A stretch of DNA of 64,000 nt from NCBI RefSeq assembly GCF_010111755.1, contig NC_088955.1, forward strand, positions 124,001 through 188,000, in the 5' to 3' direction. Below, piece after piece: positions 49,408 to 60,130 of the stretch; the first letter of the stretch is position 1, and every line of letters begins with the position of its first letter. The notes below the pieces were generated by a model. The model worked only from the letters and a program-made list of their open reading frames with translations, was not told where the DNA came from and made no database searches. A program made the translations under genes and the position numbers. The DNA is from Nakaseomyces glabratus (lineage: Eukaryota > Ascomycota > Saccharomycetes > Saccharomycetales > Saccharomycetaceae).

Positions 49408-51612
49408 CTGCTGTAACGATATGTTGGTACTCTCAACTGTATTTCGGAAAGCCGGCAATTAAAAATTTCTTAGTCTCACTTTAATACAAAGATATAATTA
49501 GTATACATACACAAGGAAGGACTAAAAAGCACCTCTTATGAAAACTAAACATTGAAAAGACTGTGTTCTCTAAGTTAGTTGAACAATCATTATCATCGTA
49601 AATACACCATATAATTGTATACAGGCTAGAACCTGTGTTATCTAAGGATTGTTGGGTCTGAAGAAATAAAGTAGGAGCTATATTTTCTTTTTTAGTTACA
49701 AATACTACTCATACTTTAATCTTAATTCATAAAGCGAAACATAATCTACATATTAAAACCTCTCTTTTCACAATATGATAACCACTTTAAGAAATATTTA
49801 ATGGATTTATTATTAATGACCAAGAACTGGGATAAATTACTTCCTCTATCGGTCGTAAAGCTATAGCCATCGTAGATTAAAAGGATTTACCAAAGGTGAC
49901 CAAGTTAATTTTTTTCATACCATAACCAGAACTGTGTTACGAATGAAACAAGATGTTTTTGAGTCTACGACATATCTGGGGCTAGATTCATGCTGGGATT
50001 AATGAAACATTTTATGTGTACTAGCAAATCGATAACGCATTTTCATTATACGTTGTCTCTGTACAGTAGTATAGCGTAGCGGCCTATGGAATATCTCTAC
50101 TGATAACTAGGAACTTTGCTACACCGATCATCCCTTTTGTCCTAATATTAATTCCTGAGAAATTTAAATTACATTGCCATGACTAAAATCACAAACTAAA
50201 ATAAATAACATTTCCATGGCCGTGCAACACTGTAGTCATTACTCTGAAATATAATTGAAGACAACTCTATTAATTATCAGTTAATTAATACATTCCGAAA
50301 GCTGAGAGCTAATCAGAGAAGAACTCAAGACCAAGACCACACATCGTAACGGTGACGAAATCCGTCCCAATACCAAGGATGAAGCTTTTCGATTCGGCTA
50401 ATTTATCTCCGTTATGAAGAGTCATTGTGAACATAGACAATAGCCCCTTGGAGCATATGCTCTTATTTGTCGTCAACTTGCAAGCAGAGAGCGTTAGCAG
50501 CTTGGCGTACGCGTATCTAGAAGCACATACTCTTGCGCAGTGCCACAGCGTGGGCTTCCCCACTGGGGCCATTCCCCTCCCTCCCCTACGACATATTCTA
50601 AGCTGCTAGCGATCCCTTCCCCCCTCGTCTCCCTTCAACTTGCCGAACACCCGAGGCATAGAATGTGAAAATTTGGTAAATCCTCGGGAGTTTGCAAATC
50701 AGCGCTGGTCGGGCCTGTCTGGTAAGACTGCTGCGATTCGGGACACTTAACTGCACAGGGAACACACTGTAGCAACATTGATTGAGGGGGGAATGGGTAT
50801 GTCTGGTCGGTGTTATTCATCTAAATCTATTACGCAAGGAGGCTTCTTTGCTTTTCTATACATGCGACTGTTTCAGAGAGACTTACAACAGACAATGATA
50901 TCTCGCCGTCCTAACGGTATCTCTCGAGTCTCGAGTCTCGGCCTTTCCAGGATTCGGTCACTATTGAGCTATTCGAGCTTAACAAAGTTTAACGAAGTTG
51001 AATAGAAGGAGACATATTTACGGAGTCTGTGGTGACTAAGGGGACGACTTGCATTTCGTGAACCAGAGAAAATGCTTGTACGCACTTCTGTTAATTAATC
51101 TGGCCATACGTTGAACTGTTCACCAAGCTTCTTCGGAAGGGACTGGGTTATTTCTGATATAATCCTATTCATAATGTGTTCCAAAGCGCGAGCCATGGTT
51201 GTTATCACCACTAGTCGGATCCCGATATCTTTGCTTTTCTTTTCCATGTTTTCATTGTATGGGAAATCCTAACCTGTACTGGAGGGTCTGTTGCTATGTG
51301 CAAGGGTCTTAGCCTATATTATGGTTTAGTCAATTATTGGATTGCTCAACAAAGCTAATGGCCTAGCTTCGGTAAATCCTTTAACTGATGTTTCGAAATT
51401 CGGGCACCATTCACTTACATATTTAAGTGTTATGTGTATTCGCCAAATTCCAAATTATTCTAATATGAATCTTTTATCTTTTTGACTTTCATTACATGAA
51501 TAAAAAGTAAGATAAAACAACTGACCTACTGTTCCAAATTCGGTGTTTTAAGAAGTATTACAGTTTTTAAGAACATACTAGACACATTGGGGCACAAGCA
51601 ACCATATCCCTG
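49408..51612. other. 2.2-kb upstream region of the adhesin gene
   Basis: This is the longest gene-poor stretch of the window. 49408-50290 is AT-rich with no signals. 50300-51050 is richer in GC and contains a small minus-strand ORF (50309-50572), G-rich words and a CTCGAGTCT direct repeat near 50925-50940. 51050-51612 is AT-rich and proximal to the adhesin. Long 5' regions are usual for regulated cell-surface genes. No tRNA or LTR was found. Confidence 0.55.
50309..50572 (-). other. Small unassigned ORF (87 codons)
   Basis: An open frame of 87 codons, with an internal ATG giving a 42-residue version starting MFTMTLHNGDKLAESKSF. The last 45 codons look plausible as coding sequence. No family was recognised and there is no synteny support. 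It may be a relic, or chance in a GC-richer regulatory region. Confidence 0.2.
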
Positions 51613-54600
51613 ATGAAGTATCTAAGTGTGTTTGCTACATTTGTGGCCATTTTATCCTGGGCATGCGCTACGGTGTATCCTAATTTCTATAAAGATAAGA
51701 CGATAGTACTGGATGGTATGGGCACCGAGGAATTTACTATTCCCAGGGATAAAATATTATCTTTAGTTAATACAAGTTTAACTTTAAAGAATTTTGCTCA
51801 TATCAGCATTAAGGAGGGTGTTCTTATCCAGGAAAAATCATCAGTTACTATTATTCCTCCTATTGGCGCTAGTAGGAAATTTAACTTTACATTGGGCGGT
51901 GTATTTGATCTAGAAAATGAGTCAAAATTCATATTTGATGGTAGCGGAAACACCTATGAGGATGAGGCCGATGCTGTGAACAATTTTGTTTTTGATATTT
52001 ATGCAAATAGTAGTGGGATTCAGGTCTATAAGGGCAATACTGTAAGTGTCACTCTTCCAACCATAAAAAATAGTATACCAAACTACCAAGGAGAATCCCC
52101 ACATATTCGTTTTGCTGGTAGTACCTTAGATCAATTTATATATAAACCTCCATACGTGTTGGTTTCACTTATGATCATTGCCGGAAAATTTGAAGTGCTG
52201 TCACCGGGCAGTAAGACAGGATCTCAGTTTGATAAAGTTATTTGGAGAGTGGACTTTGGAGTAAGTGGATTAGCAAAAACTAACCCGAATACCCCATCCT
52301 ATGGCGTAGATAAGTTAACTGGTGAAATAACATGTGAGGGGATACTGGCTGTTTATAATGATATGTTTGCATTCACAAATAATGCTGTGTTGCATACATT
52401 GGGGTATATTGGGTATTCCGTTGTATCACCAATCACTTTGGATCTGAGCATGGGGCCAATTCGTAGGCCAACAAACTATGAATATCTAGTGGCATTGCCA
52501 GCGGGGCAAGACGGCATCACACTGACAGGCTATAAATACACAGCAGATACCGATATAAGCGATGCTCATCAGTACCTGTTCTACTATTTCTACGACAATG
52601 ATGCTACCAAAGAAGACGAGATTAGTGTATCTACTGACAATTCCGATGTAAGGATTTTGCATTCCAACCCATCACAAACTGTGACAGTGCATGGTGATAG
52701 CGCCCTGAATATTGGATACTACAAAGGCGACAGAATCGACTCATTTGTAGGCTTCGATGGTCTAGACTTTAGCAAATACAAGAAGGAGTTAGCGGTATAC
52801 TTTTATGAGTCCTTTCAATACTCATCTACCACGACAACGAAGTCTGATGAGTATACCACTGAAATTATCGAGATCATTGTGTCAGGAACACTTGGAATAG
52901 ATAACAAGCCCTCTCCGGTAACGATTAGTTCAACAATTTATAACCAACTACGCGAAACAACCGAGACAGTCGACTTAGGAAATGGAGTGACGGAATATCA
53001 TGTACTAGATTATTTCCCAGTTCCTCAAGATGATAAAGAGCATCCATATGGGACGAGTACTAAAATAATTACATACAGTCCGCCACCTGTGACGATCACC
53101 GCCACCACTGCCGCGGACTATGTTGAGACCGACTGGATCTCGTTCTTCATCACCACGAATGATAAGGGTGAGATTATTACTGACAGCACACTGTTCAATG
53201 CTACGCGTGACTACAACTTGCCTGAGGCTCCGCACACGTCGTTCGGGCCTGCACCTCCTGCCGAGACCAAGACTGTTGATCTGGGCAACGAAGTGACTGA
53301 GTACCTGGTCATCAGCTACTGGACGACCACCAACGAGTTTGGTGGGTTGATCACCACAGCAGCAACCAGGACGTACAGTCCGCCACCTGTGACGATCACC
53401 GCCACCACTGCCGCGGACTATGTTGAGACCGACTGGATCTCGTTCTTCATCACCACGAATGATAAGGGTGAGATTATTACTGACAGCACACTGTTCAATG
53501 CTACGCGTGACTACAACTTGCCTGAGGCTCCGCACACGTCGTTCGGGCCTGCACCTCCTGCCGAGACCAAGACTGTTGATCTGGGCAACGAAGTGACTGA
53601 GTACCTGGTCATCAGCTACTGGACGACCACCAACGAGTTTGGTGGGTTGATCACCACTAGCAGCACCAGGACGTACAGTCCGCCACCTGTGACGATCACC
53701 GCCACCACTGCCGCGGACTATGTTGAGACCGACTGGATCTCGTTCTTCATCACCACGAATGATAAGGGTGAGATTATTACTGACAGCACACTGTTCAATG
53801 CTACGCGTGACTACAACTTGCCTGAGGCTCCGCACACGTCGTTCGGGCCTGCACCTCCTGCCGAGACCAAGACTGTTGATCTGGGCAACGAAGTGACTGA
53901 GTACCTGGTCATCAGCTACTGGACGACCACCAACGAGTTTGGTGGGTTGATCACCACTAGCAGCACCAGGACGTACAGTCCGCCACCTGTGACGATCACC
54001 GCCACCACTGCCGCGGACTATGTTGAGACCGACTGGATCTCGTTCTTCATCACCACGAATGATAAGGGTGAGATTATTACTGACAGCACACTGTTCAATG
54101 CTACGCGTGACTACAACTTGCCTGAGGCTCCGCACACGTCGTTCGGGCCTGCACCTCCTGCCGAGACCAAGACTGTTGATCTGGGCAACGAAGTGACTGA
54201 GTACCTGGTCATCAGCTACTGGACGACCACCAACGAGTTTGGTGGGTTGATCACCACTAGCAGCACCAGGACGTACAGTCCGCCACCTGTGACGATCACC
54301 GCCACCACTGCCGCGGACTATGTTGAGACCGACTGGATCTCGTTCTTCATCACCACGAATGATAAGGGTGAGATTATTACTGACAGCACACTGTTCAATG
54401 CTACGCGTGACTACAACTTGCCTGAGGCTCCGCACACGTCGTTCGGGCCTGCACCTCCTGCCGAGACCAAGACTGTTGATCTGGGCAACGAAGTGACTGA
54501 GTACCTGGTCATCAGCTACTGGACGACCACCAACGAGTTTGGTGGGTTGATCACCACTAGCAGCACCAGGACGTACAGTCCGCCACCTGTGACGATCACC

Positions 54601-57600
54601 GCCACCACTGCCGCGGACTATGTTGAGACCGACTGGATCTCGTTCTTCATCACCACGAATGATAAGGGTGAGATTATTACTGACAGCACACTGTTCAATG
54701 CTACGCGTGACTACAACTTGCCTGAGGCTCCGCACACGTCGTTCGGGCCTGCACCTCCTGCCGAGACCAAGACTGTTGATCTGGGCAACGAAGTGACTGA
54801 GTACCTGGTCATCAGCTACTGGACGACCACCAACGAGTTTGGTGGGTTGATCACCACTAGCAGCACCAGGACGTACAGTCCGCCACCTGTGACGATCACC
54901 GCCACCACTGCCGCGGACTATGTTGAGACCGACTGGATCTCGTTCTTCATCACCACGAATGATAAGGGTGAGATTATTACTGACAGCACACTGTTCAATG
55001 CTACGCGTGACTACAACTTGCCTGAGGCTCCGCACACGTCGTTCGGGCCTGCACCTCCTGCCGAGACCAAGACTGTTGATCTGGGCAACGAAGTGACTGA
55101 GTACCTGGTCATCAGCTACTGGACGACCACCAACGAGTTTGGTGGGTTGATCACCACTAGCAGCACCAGGACGTACAGTCCGCCACCTGTGACGATCACC
55201 GCCACCACTGCCGCGGACTATGTTGAGACCGACTGGATCTCGTTCTTCATCACCACGAATGATAAGGGTGAGATTATTACTGACAGCACACTGTTCAATG
55301 CTACGCGTGACTACAACTTGCCTGAGGCTCCGCACACGTCGTTCGGGCCTGCACCTCCTGCCGAGACCAAGACTGTTGATCTGGGCAACGAAGTGACTGA
55401 GTACCTGGTCATCAGCTACTGGACGACCACCAACGAGTTTGGTGGGTTGATCACCACTAGCAGCACCAGGACGTACAGTCCGCCACCTGTGACGATCACC
55501 GCCACCACTGCCGCGGACTATGTTGAGACCGACTGGATCTCGTTCTTCATCACCACGAATGATAAGGGTGAGATTATTACTGACAGCACACTGTTCAATG
55601 CTACGCGTGACTACAACTTGCCTGAGGCTCCGCACACGTCGTTCGGGCCTGCACCTCCTGCCGAGACCAAGACTGTTGATCTGGGCAACGAAGTGACTGA
55701 GTACCTGGTCATCAGCTACTGGACGACCACCAACGAGTTTGGTGGGTTGATCACCACTAGCAGCACCAGGACGTACAGTCCGCCACCTGTGACGATCACC
55801 GCCACCACTGCCGCGGACTATGTTGAGACCGACTGGATCTCGTTCTTCATCACCACGAATGATAAGGGTGAGATTATTACTGACAGCACACTGTTCAATG
55901 CTACGCGTGACTACAACTTGCCTGAGGCTCCGCACACGTCGTTCGGGCCTGCACCTCCTGCCGAGACCAAGACTGTTGATCTGGGCAACGAAGTGACTGA
56001 GTACCTGGTCATCAGCTACTGGACGACCACCAACGAGTTTGGTGGGTTGATCACCACTAGCAGCACCAGGACGTACAGTCCGCCACCTGTGACGATCACC
56101 GCCACCACTGCCGCGGACTATGTTGAGACCGACTGGATCTCGTTCTTCATCACCACGAATGATAAGGGTGAGATTATTACTGACAGCACACTGTTCAATG
56201 CTACGCGTGACTACAACTTGCCTGAGGCTCCGCACACGTCGTTCGGGCCTGCACCTCCTGCCGAGACCAAGACTGTTGATCTGGGCAACGAAGTGACTGA
56301 GTACCTGGTCATCAGCTACTGGACGACCACCAACGAGTTTGGTGGGTTGATCACCACTAGCAGCACCAGGACGTACAGTCCGCCACCTGTGACGATCACC
56401 GCCACCACTGCCGCGGACTATGTTGAGACCGACTGGATCTCGTTCTTCATCACCACGAATGATAAGGGTGAGATTATTACTGACAGCACACTGTTCAATG
56501 CTACGCGTGACTACAACTTGCCTGAGGCTCCGCACACGTCGTTCGGGCCTGCACCTCCTGCCGAGACCAAGACTGTTGATCTGGGCAACGAAGTGACTGA
56601 GTACCTGGTCATCAGCTACTGGACGACCACCAACGAGTTTGGTGGGTTGATCACCACTAGCAGCACCAGGACGTACAGTCCGCCACCTGTGACGATCACC
56701 GCCACCACTGCCGCGGACTATGTTGAGACCGACTGGATCTCGTTCTTCATCACCACGAATGATAAGGGTGAGATTATTACTGACAGCACACTGTTCAATG
56801 CAACTAGGGAATATATTGACGCAGAAGCACCTCATTTATCTTCTAGCATGAAAGATGTTTTACCTGAGAGTGAGGCTGATTACACGACGACGATTGACAA
56901 GGGCAACGGTGAGTTTGAGACCGACCTTGTTTCGCACATCACTACGAAGGACTCTGACGGCAAGCCTACGACGATTACCACTACGATCCCATTGAAGCCA
57001 AGTGAAGTCGGCGAGGCCGGCGAGGCCGACTACACGACGACGATCATATCAGATGGGCACACGATCACGGAGGTAGTATCTCATGTCACAACTACAGACT
57101 CTGATGGGAAGACCATTACATACATCACCACGATGGCGTCATATGATCAAGTAGATGAGGGTGTGTTCACGTCAGCTGCACCTTACTCACAGCCACCAGT
57201 CGTGACGAGTACAATTACTGAGGATGACGGCAGTAGCAAGACTGTTGTGATCTCTTACTTCCCATCTGAAGGCGAGGATGGAGTGACCCGTACTGGCACA
57301 ACGACTGTGTCGACCATCACACCTGGAGAAGCCGACTACACGACGACGATCATATCAGATGGGCACACGATCACGGAGGTAGTATCTCATGTCACAACTA
57401 CAGACTCTGATGGGAAGACCATTACATACACGACCACCATATTCAGTAACGATTGGTTGTTAGTGGATTCTGAGTTAGACGTTAAATCGAATCACCCTAC
57501 TTCAGTTGTTTCCAAGGAGAATCCTTATACTACAGTGGATTCGCAAAGCACTATCTCTAGCAATTCTGGAAACACGGTCGTCACTACAAAGACGCCAGCC

Positions 57601-58260
57601 AACGGTAATGAGAATCACGGATTATCTTCTGTTAATGGAACTTCAGTTTCTAGTGGACGCAATACTATCCCTTCAGTGTCATTGATAATCACAAATACTT
57701 TAGGATTCGCAGGGCCGATAAACAAGCCTTCTTATAGTACTACTTCTGCATCGAGTTCTGTGCCACAGGAAGTTGCGAGGGACAGTTCTAAATATGGCGA
57801 AAATGTATCATCTGTGGGTATTATGCTACCTCAAATGTCTAAACCACATGCCTCATCTGCTTCAATCTCAGTTGTTCATAGTTCATCACGTCCAGTTATC
57901 TCTAGGGGATCTAGGCCATCCGATGTTTCTGCTCGTCCTACCGAGAACACGCCGACATTTGGATCAATGCCGGTTCAAAGCGGCGCTGAGAATGATGCTT
58001 CCGTGAGTTCGACAAATGATAACCAGAATACACATACAGCACAGTCACGGCTGCAACAGCTAGGAAAGACCTCCAGCGATTTAGGGACCACTGCATTATT
58101 AATACCGTCAAGCTCCGCTGTTAACATCAGCCATACCGGAGGGCCATCGGACACTCAAATAGCTTCTGTTTTACAAGGTTCTGGTTTTAAGATCAAGGCC
58201 AACAAATCAGAGGTTATGATTCTTTTAGTAACTGTGTTTCTCTTTTTAGGAATGGTGTGA
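51613..58260 (+). CDS. Megasatellite-bearing GPI adhesin-like wall protein (Hyr/Awp type)
   Basis: The 2215-residue protein has a signal peptide (about 1-19) and an N-terminal domain (about 20-340) resembling the Hyphally regulated cell wall protein (Hyr1/Awp) beta-helix domain. A linker (about 340-487) ends in a degenerate half-repeat. The SFFIT megasatellite occupies residues 488-1730, with 12 full 100-residue units plus a partial unit. It is followed by SHITT/SHVTT-type units (about 1750-1957), a Ser/Thr stalk and a hydrophobic GPI signal at the extreme C-terminus. Each unit carries Thr-rich strands and an NATR N-glycosylation site. It is probably a covalently attached wall adhesin. It lies between VPS68 and the MCK1-type kinase, where S. 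cerevisiae has none. The ligand is unknown. Confidence 0.93.
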   Translation: MKYLSVFATFVAILSWACATVYPNFYKDKTIVLDGMGTEEFTIPRDKILSLVNTSLTLKNFAHISIKEGVLIQEKSSVTIIPPIGASRKFNFTLGGVFDLENESKFIFDGSGNTYEDEADAVNNFVFDIYANSSGIQVYKGNTVSVTLPTIKNSIPNYQGESPHIRFAGSTLDQFIYKPPYVLVSLMIIAGKFEVLSPGSKTGSQFDKVIWRVDFGVSGLAKTNPNTPSYGVDKLTGEITCEGILAVYNDMFAFTNNAVLHTLGYIGYSVVSPITLDLSMGPIRRPTNYEYLVALPAGQDGITLTGYKYTADTDISDAHQYLFYYFYDNDATKEDEISVSTDNSDVRILHSNPSQTVTVHGDSALNIGYYKGDRIDSFVGFDGLDFSKYKKELAVYFYESFQYSSTTTTKSDEYTTEIIEIIVSGTLGIDNKPSPVTISSTIYNQLRETTETVDLGNGVTEYHVLDYFPVPQDDKEHPYGTSTKIITYSPPPVTITATTAADYVETDWISFFITTNDKGEIITDSTLFNATRDYNLPEAPHTSFGPAPPAETKTVDLGNEVTEYLVISYWTTTNEFGGLITTAATRTYSPPPVTITATTAADYVETDWISFFITTNDKGEIITDSTLFNATRDYNLPEAPHTSFGPAPPAETKTVDLGNEVTEYLVISYWTTTNEFGGLITTSSTRTYSPPPVTITATTAADYVETDWISFFITTNDKGEIITDSTLFNATRDYNLPEAPHTSFGPAPPAETKTVDLGNEVTEYLVISYWTTTNEFGGLITTSSTRTYSPPPVTITATTAADYVETDWISFFITTNDKGEIITDSTLFNATRDYNLPEAPHTSFGPAPPAETKTVDLGNEVTEYLVISYWTTTNEFGGLITTSSTRTYSPPPVTITATTAADYVETDWISFFITTNDKGEIITDSTLFNATRDYNLPEAPHTSFGPAPPAETKTVDLGNEVTEYLVISYWTTTNEFGGLITTSSTRTYSPPPVTITATTAADYVETDWISFFITTNDKGEIITDSTLFNATRDYNLPEAPHTSFGPAPPAETKTVDLGNEVTEYLVISYWTTTNEFGGLITTSSTRTYSPPPVTITATTAADYVETDWISFFITTNDKGEIITDSTLFNATRDYNLPEAPHTSFGPAPPAETKTVDLGNEVTEYLVISYWTTTNEFGGLITTSSTRTYSPPPVTITATTAADYVETDWISFFITTNDKGEIITDSTLFNATRDYNLPEAPHTSFGPAPPAETKTVDLGNEVTEYLVISYWTTTNEFGGLITTSSTRTYSPPPVTITATTAADYVETDWISFFITTNDKGEIITDSTLFNATRDYNLPEAPHTSFGPAPPAETKTVDLGNEVTEYLVISYWTTTNEFGGLITTSSTRTYSPPPVTITATTAADYVETDWISFFITTNDKGEIITDSTLFNATRDYNLPEAPHTSFGPAPPAETKTVDLGNEVTEYLVISYWTTTNEFGGLITTSSTRTYSPPPVTITATTAADYVETDWISFFITTNDKGEIITDSTLFNATRDYNLPEAPHTSFGPAPPAETKTVDLGNEVTEYLVISYWTTTNEFGGLITTSSTRTYSPPPVTITATTAADYVETDWISFFITTNDKGEIITDSTLFNATRDYNLPEAPHTSFGPAPPAETKTVDLGNEVTEYLVISYWTTTNEFGGLITTSSTRTYSPPPVTITATTAADYVETDWISFFITTNDKGEIITDSTLFNATREYIDAEAPHLSSSMKDVLPESEADYTTTIDKGNGEFETDLVSHITTKDSDGKPTTITTTIPLKPSEVGEAGEADYTTTIISDGHTITEVVSHVTTTDSDGKTITYITTMASYDQVDEGVFTSAAPYSQPPVVTSTITEDDGSSKTVVISYFPSEGEDGVTRTGTTTVSTITPGEADYTTTIISDGHTITEVVSHVTTTDSDGKTITYTTTIFSNDWLLVDSELDVKSNHPTSVVSKENPYTTVDSQSTISSNSGNTVVTTKTPANGNENHGLSSVNGTSVSSGRNTIPSVSLIITNTLGFAGPINKPSYSTTSASSSVPQEVARDSSKYGENVSSVGIMLPQMSKPHASSASISVVHSSSRPVISRGSRPSDVSARPTENTPTFGSMPVQSGAENDASVSSTNDNQNTHTAQSRLQQLGKTSSDLGTTALLIPSSSAVNISHTGGPSDTQIASVLQGSGFKIKANKSEVMILLVTVFLFLGMV
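53074..56801 (+). repeat. SFFIT-type megasatellite, 300-bp unit, about 12.4 copies
   Basis: The 300-bp period (exactly 100 codons) contains WISFFITTND in each unit. Units 2-12 look base-for-base identical. The only difference seen within the array is at the end of unit 1 (53357-53367, Ala-Ala-Thr in place of Ser-Ser-Thr context). The last unit diverges after 56801. Confidence 0.97.
57025..57430 (+). repeat. SHITT/SHVTT-type units with a 100-bp exact duplication
   Basis: 57025-57124 and 57331-57430 are identical over 100 bp and encode ADYTTTIISDGHTITEVVSH plus following residues. A diverged unit with SHITT lies just upstream (about 56876-57024). Confidence 0.9.
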
Positions 58261-60130
58261 GTATTGATTGGATATGTGATTCATCAGCCCGTGCAAACTT
58301 CCTTTCAGATGGTGCCATGCATTTATTAATCACTATACATGATTGTTACTGCGGAATAAAAGTCCAGTAGGCACGTCCTGAAATTACATCACAAAATATC
58401 GTATACCAGATTGTCTGCACTGGATAACTTCTGTTAAAATTGAGCCCTTTCTTTTACGTTTGATGAAGAATTGTTCATAATTGCTAGATTTGGTGTGAAA
58501 ATCCAACACAAGAAACAAATAATACATTTGTTTATATTATAGTATCCATTTTTAGCTTAATAGGCATCTTCGATAAGTAATGTTCTATCGTTCTAAAGAT
58601 AATTCATATAAGTGGCAAAGTTACTACTAATCAAGAACTGTGGTGAATGTATTCTTACTGTATCAGTAGTGATCAATATAACAGCTATATATTCGAAAGT
58701 GATGTTTTCATTGAATAGTTGTTGAATCCAGTACAATACCATCTTCATATATGGATATCTATGAAACAAATTTTTAACTATTGTATTTCAGTACCTTCTA
58801 AATACATACAAGACACTTGGCTAAATACTCTTGATAAAATTTAGTATTTTCCCAAAGCTGCTCTTTCATTGCATCCCCACAAACATCAGTAAATTTAACT
58901 TTCCTATTTTTTAGATGTAATTAAATATAATACCTTGGAATTGATATTATAAAAATTACATCCATTAGTGGATGAAAAATTTATTACAAGAAGCGAGCGT
59001 TTTTTTACAATATATTTTAAGCCAAAGCTACCTATGTTTTGGAATATATATGTTGATATGTCAAATAAGAAATATATCGTATTATATAAATGACATCTTT
59101 TTGTCTTGGACCTATGCAAATTTTGTAATACTACTGATATAATAATCATATAGGGAAACAATCAAGGAATTTATTTGAGGTCAACATTGGCATTATCAAT
59201 TTCAGATCAAGGCGAAACCGAATTAGATATTGTATACTAAATACATAATAAAAGAGTTGCTAAAAAAAAATCTACTGAAGAGATGTTTATAAATCCTATA
59301 AATAAGGAAATTCAGAAATAAAATTCTGCGTCTAAAATTTGAACTGATTTGATGTTAAGACAAACATATTACAGCTGACATACTTCATATTAGATTTATA
59401 TACATTATCAACAGAACTCAAGCAATGCTTGCATTTATGTAACCTGAAACTATAAAAAATGGCATCGATAAGGAAAACTATTTATTGATAGATTTGTCAA
59501 GTTCATTAAGAATTTACACTGACAAATAGTTTTGTGGCATCCTTTGCTGATTACGATTATGTGTACAAAAATCTGTCGAACATAAAGTATTCTTTTAGAA
59601 ATGAAATTATATCTTGTCAAAAGCACTTTATCAAGCATTACTATTCTGTGGTCTATTCTATTAAACTATGATTTTGTTTTTTATTATCAGATACACTAAA
59701 CTGGTAAAGTCAAAAAAATCAAATAGTAGTCATTATAAAAACCTAGAAGCAGATTTACTTCTATCTCACATTATCTCATAGTTTCCCAATGTGAAAGAGA
59801 CAGTTTATACGGAATACATGTTTCATAATATAAAGATCTATCAAACCTGTGTTAACGATTATATGCTGATGTGTCAGTATGTACCCAGCTCAGAGCAAAC
59901 TCTAATAACTTCGAGACATAGCAGACTTACCTTGAGATACAACTAAAAAACTATTGCATTTATTTGCAAGGTAAAAGTAGTGTTTGGGTCGTTCAACTTC
60001 ATATATGTGATAAAAAGCATAAAGTAGAGACTCAATAAGAGAAAAAAAAAACAACTGTGACAACCTCACTAGACCGTAAGAATAAAATATACGAAATAAA
60101 ATAAATTTCACCATTGCCTCTCAATTGATT
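58261..60130. other. 1.9-kb AT-rich region between adhesin and kinase gene
   Basis: Very AT-rich convergent 3' DNA without a supported gene. Open frames of 60-85 codons lack coding features. No LTR, tRNA or other RNA gene was recognised by eye. Confidence 0.55.

Follow-up and report, generated by a model that had tools for sequence, protein, structure and literature searches.

How does an adhesin gene with a long megasatellite stalk come to lie inside a chromosome, and what is its relationship to similar genes elsewhere in the genome? The question is raised by CAGL0E01661g (hereafter E01661g), an adhesin gene of Nakaseomyces glabratus located in a 64,000-nucleotide stretch of contig C5 (C5:124001-188000, the whole of which we call the window). 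We searched the 13 contigs (12.73 Mb) of this genome. The locus is a real, correctly placed and already catalogued adhesin gene. An earlier note on this DNA had placed it at an internal site, and it indeed lies at C5:175613 of a 707,423-base contig. The same note regarded it as a lone insertion; in fact it belongs to a shared block present at two internal sites, one on C5 and one on C12. Our reading, to which we give a probability of roughly 0.8, is that the gene was duplicated with its promoter alongside its C12 partner, that the two products came to have different beta-helices, and that sandwich, linker and repeats were homogenised by gene conversion.

The duplicated block extends beyond the coding sequence on both sides. 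Upstream, the match to C12:1095569-1097226 reaches 93.6% identity (1552/1658), and this segment is likely the promoter or regulatory region, duplicated along with the gene. At the 3' end, positions 57600-58712 match C12:1100821-1101924 at 89% identity, with 76-83% in windows past the stop codon, where the block ends. Upstream region, gene and 3' flank are therefore common to two internal loci. The tails are also alike (94.7-98.0% identity in five 150-nucleotide windows, 57441-58190). The paralogue, at C12:1097228 and of CAGL0L10092g type, encodes 1416 amino acids with 3 SFFIT words. The features of the block and of the gene are the following:

49947-51612, plus strand: upstream block common with the C12 paralogue
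51613-58260, plus strand: cluster III cell-wall adhesin gene of glycosylphosphatidylinositol (GPI) type, CAGL0E01661g locus, 2215 amino acids in this strain
51613-51672, plus strand: signal-peptide-like N-terminus, residues 1-20, read from sequence (helix at 2-17 in the structure model)
51673-52353, plus strand: beta-helix part of the A-domain, residues 21-247, the most variable part between paralogues and between some alleles
52354-52812, plus strand: beta-sandwich part of the A-domain, about residues 248-400, nearly identical in both paralogues
53074-56801, plus strand: SFFIT megasatellite, unit of 300 bp (100 amino acids), 13 SFFIT words, final unit incomplete
56875-57456, plus strand: VSHITT and VSHVTT modules (PF20646, Hpf1_C), interrupted by one ISYF module; the first starts at residue 1755 and the last ends near 1948
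57457-58260, plus strand: Ser/Thr-rich tail and hydrophobic GPI-type C-terminus, start approximate
58261-58712, plus strand: 3' flank common with the C12 paralogue, at whose end the block stops

Within the gene, divergence between the two copies is mosaic. Codons 21-247 are identical at 525/675 nucleotides, codons 248-486 at 713/717, and the step extends to synonymous sites: synonymous divergence (dS) is 0.356 and nonsynonymous divergence (dN) 0.243 in codons 21-245, compared with 0.019 and 0.002 in codons 246-486. Amino-acid differences form a run up to residue 238, followed by a single one at 253; this border lies near the end of the beta-helix (strand 238-247 in the model). Since dS falls between the two halves of the head, the pattern is most simply read as exchange of DNA between the loci; selection on the protein would not lower dS in this way. 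The pair is a clean case, with internal copies, shared flanks and a dS step where the beta-helix and sandwich halves of the binding domain meet.

Public records allow the same comparison within each locus. A homolog search, with candidates limited to proteins of 0.55-1.75 times the query length, returned 17 proteins, all named Nakaseomyces glabratus and one of them B1J92_E01661g. Eleven records (P0002-P0012) are assigned to the E01661g locus by their A-domain identity, and all but P0010 also by a C-terminus of E type; P0013-P0016 are of L type (CAGL0L10092g type). Residues 1-400 of E01661g, the part covered by the identity comparison, are identical in 5 of the 11 E-type records and differ at one position in 2 and at 14-15 in 4, and these records hold 3-14 SFFIT words against 13 here (3-14 over the 12 alleles of the locus). 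When the E-type records were compared with E01661g and the four L-type records with the C12 gene, differences were in excess in the beta-helix, relative to residues 248-486, in 6 of 15 comparisons: P0009 (13/227 versus 0/239, p 7.3e-5), P0010-P0012 (each 14/227 versus 3/239, p 0.0055), P0013 (32/225 versus 5/239, p 1.2e-6) and P0016 (30/205 versus 6/239, p 2.5e-6). With residues 21-62 removed, the last two gave p 0.0004 and p 3e-5. P0013, of L type by its C-terminus, matches the E state at 11 of the 12 leading informative sites, after which L states predominate (16 E, 55 L and 11 other among 82 sites), a pattern we read as a conversion tract. It differs from P0016 at 16/42 positions in residues 21-62, 4/163 in 63-247 and 1/239 in 248-486. 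Two of the records look frame-damaged, P0010 having a foreign C-terminus and P0016 a 20-residue gap and scrambled repeats.

The repeats behind the head have a wider distribution. At least 14 places in the genome carry SFFIT units, a count drawn from 150 scored of 370 candidates, both under cluster III heads and next to a GLEYA/PA14 head (L043, C12:1438501-1443600). The head of L043 (GLEYA E 2.4e-20, PA14 E 6e-13) is unrelated to that of E01661g, yet its commonest unit has the same protein sequence and 294/300 of the DNA. Representative units of E01661g, C12a, C12b and C3 likewise encode a single 100-residue sequence, their DNA differing at 2-10 silent positions. Units that differ by silent changes only stand behind two head types, cluster III and PA14. 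The earlier expectation that these repeats inform on megasatellite spread is borne out. Diverged units (77-79% identity) also lie behind a PF11765 head at C12:1072073, starting at C12:1074041 in one open frame of 3157 amino acids. Similarity of heads and of units is often discordant: C5 and C3 share 24% of the head and 292/300 of the unit, C1 and C12c 55% and 300/300, and C9 and C12c 86% and 262/300. The C9 unit (C9:6195-8594, L015) looks like a mosaic of C1 type in the middle (nucleotides 101-150: 48/50 to C1, 44/50 to E01661g) and C5 type at the end (last 50 nucleotides: 49/50 to E01661g, 33/50 to C1). The repeat pattern is consistent with units that recombination has spread and homogenised and that are under purifying selection. 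Two side observations concern these arrays. The L043 frame is broken on both sides of its array as assembled, by a real lesion or an assembly error, and in L011 (C5:33311-37456) the first SFFIT half precedes a SHITT-like module that begins with TVDLGN, as the second SFFIT half does, possibly an intermediate between the two families.

We tentatively propose, at somewhat less than even odds, that SFFIT and VSHITT are branches of one Hpf1_C (YTTT) module of about 45 residues, SFFIT being the doubled form. Because stalks are common to adhesins with unrelated heads, they may act as recombination anchors; stalks would then be homogenised genome-wide and the beta-helix head would diversify independently of them as a cassette, at internal loci away from the subtelomeres too. 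The idea that conversion keeps stalks alike while heads diverge becomes testable with existing long-read genomes. The formation and spread of megasatellites were called unexplained in the part of a 2015 paper available to us (PMC4556013).

For the pair itself, the history we favour would run as follows. Duplication would have given the gene and its promoter an internal counterpart on C12 (CAGL0L10092g type), the two copies would have kept or gained different beta-helices, and conversion between the loci would have made sandwich, linker and repeats alike. Strain differences in array length may have arisen by unequal exchange, and purifying selection would preserve the protein sequence of the repeat unit.

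Several points weigh against this account. The dN/dS of codons 21-245 is 0.68 and exceeds 1 in only 3 of 8 windows of 30 codons (31-270), and a value of 0.68 alone does not prove diversifying (positive) selection on the beta-helix. P0010-P0012 are near-identical alleles, so three of the six cases of beta-helix excess overlap. The other nine of the 15 comparisons lack the excess, eight of them with 0 beta-helix differences and the ninth, L-type P0015, with 6/225 versus 4/239 (p 0.53). Across eight loci a Mantel test of head against unit similarity gave a borderline positive correlation (r 0.37, p 0.051), which does not allow heads and units to be called independent. SFFIT counts may be off, since public records of the arrays hold errors (P0010, P0016). 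Finally, no ligand or expression test of the E01661g protein was found in the literature searched.

The strongest competitor holds that the pair is young and that one copy took a foreign beta-helix from a third gene in a single conversion, rather than retaining old divergence next to homogenised flanks. Upstream divergence of about 6% beside a 22% nucleotide difference in the beta-helix would suit such a replacement; we nevertheless consider it unlikely, for no third place in the genome comes closer than 36% over the head, which leaves no donor in this genome, and the six within-locus comparisons that differ mainly in the beta-helix suggest more than one event.

A second question concerns the class of the head, which the earlier note had called Hyr/Awp-like. 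The N-domain matches 13 places in the genome (E 8.9e-275 to 1.6e-17), 11 of them no more than about 36 kb from the end of a contig; the internal ones are only E01661g and C12:1097228. The A-domain finds Awp14 with phmmer (E 2e-33) and is modelled as a beta-helix followed by a beta-sandwich, as in cluster III. In the portions of the literature consulted, PMC8634165 counts 13 cluster III adhesins in ATCC 2001, every one with VSHITT or SFFIT repeats, and reports Aed1, Awp13 and Awp14 from cell walls; the family table of PMC11542307 groups CAGL0E01661g with AED1, AED2, AWP13 and CAGL0L10092g in a row of 17 names by our count, marked as specific for N. glabratus. A search for PF11765, proposed earlier as a check, was negative, residues 1-486 matching no Pfam family at E of 1 or below. 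PF11765 is found at 20 places in the genome, none of them the E01661g locus, and profile-profile comparison of the N-domain with eight of these 20 domains gave a probability of 0.3%, with alignments shallow on both sides. At sequence level, the N-domain is of cluster III (AED1/AED2/Awp14 type) and not Hyr/PF11765, and of the earlier description the Awp fold is what stands. That the domain is a true Hyr/PF11765 domain diverged beyond the reach of Pfam is improbable against these results, even though the predicted overall fold is that of Awp1 and Awp3b and PMC8746771, in the text available, assigns to cluster III the same beta-helix/alpha-crystallin architecture and connects clusters V and VI with Hyr1 and Hpf1.

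Comparison with known systems places the gene more closely. Its CAGL0L10092g-type paralogue has upstream region, sandwich, linker, repeats and tail in common with it; in contrast, residues 21-245 are identical at merely 145/223 positions and the SFFIT words number 3 in this strain. Awp14 (cluster III; PDB 7qpk) is 28% identical to E01661g, and its stalk is given in the accessible part of PMC8634165 as 114 VSHITT and 4 SFFIT repeats, whereas SFFIT predominates here. Awp1 and Awp3b (cluster VI; 7o9q, 7o9p) share the predicted Awp fold at 10-17% identity in structural alignment. Trees or adhesin counts made from partial A-domains, or from stalks, can mislead.

Returning to the pair, a history of duplication and protein selection without conversion, in which sandwich and linker are under far stronger constraint, is considerably less probable than cassette replacement. 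Constraint does differ by domain and codons 246-486 are almost devoid of replacement changes; however, dS also drops about 19-fold at that point, against a difference of about 6% in the non-coding upstream region. This account is weakened because selection on protein alone does not cut dS, and P0013 is a chimera. That the gene is an assembly artefact or a collapsed array is next to negligible: long identical arrays are hard to assemble and problems persist in highly repetitive regions according to the text seen of PMC9548116, but the frame is open over all 2215 codons and 11 other records hold the same gene, which confines doubt to the exact copy number.

The anatomy of the gene agrees in part with what had been claimed for it. 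The 6.6-kb gene is an uninterrupted open reading frame (ORF) from ATG to stop, and the GPI-type end, like the signal-peptide-like start, is read from sequence. Tandem Repeats Finder delimits the 300-bp megasatellite with 12.4 copies and 99% matches. Of the 13 SFFIT units, 11 are identical over 300 nucleotides, one is 293/300 to those, and the last (181/300) runs out into the following module. SHITT-type units are present as three separate modules (1 VSHITT and 2 VSHVTT words), with four stretches matching PF20646 (the Hpf1_C YTTT repeat; E 3.5e-30 on the C-terminal piece), and not as a second tandem array, since Tandem Repeats Finder lists none for VSHITT in this allele. Both families do coexist in one wall protein; this is no novelty, having been described for the cluster III adhesin Awp14 in the part seen of PMC8634165. 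In the secreted protein, a GPI remnant would fix a long SFFIT/SHITT stalk to the wall, and the beta-helix/beta-sandwich head, at the far end of this stalk, may bind a surface ligand. A minus-strand ORF of 1276 amino acids crosses the array (53005-56835), and antisense frames are open across the C12 paralogue's and C12b arrays too, probably as a by-product of the repeat.

The useful addition made here is the mosaic history of the E/L pair, the locus and the coexistence of SFFIT and SHITT being already known. No paper on that history was found in a search that left out the founding megasatellite papers and supplements. At least three converted adhesin pairs are described in the text seen of PMC9548116, from an analysis of EPA and AWP2; that text names neither AED1 nor E01661. 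In mouse urinary-tract infection, CAGL0L10092g has a log2 value of 7.46 (Table 3 of PMC9348041); E01661g is not named in the portion of that paper's text on in vivo adhesin expression that was available.

By Pfam, the genes around the locus encode a GH72 glucanosyltransferase, a CorA protein, a UPF0220 protein, a protein kinase and a malate/lactate dehydrogenase. Among them are genes that we take to be ALR1, VPS68, YGK3/MCK1 and MDH2, and the block presumably resembles chromosome XV. Upstream of the gene, the intergenic positions 50250-51250 have 43-50% G+C with AT-rich sequence on both sides and are 93-100% identical per 100 nucleotides to the C12 copy. A minus-strand ORF of 87 amino acids (50309-50572) is present in the C5 and C12 copies of this upstream stretch. 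Between adhesin and kinase, positions 58500-59750 have 26-28% G+C and lie mostly beyond the block common to C12.
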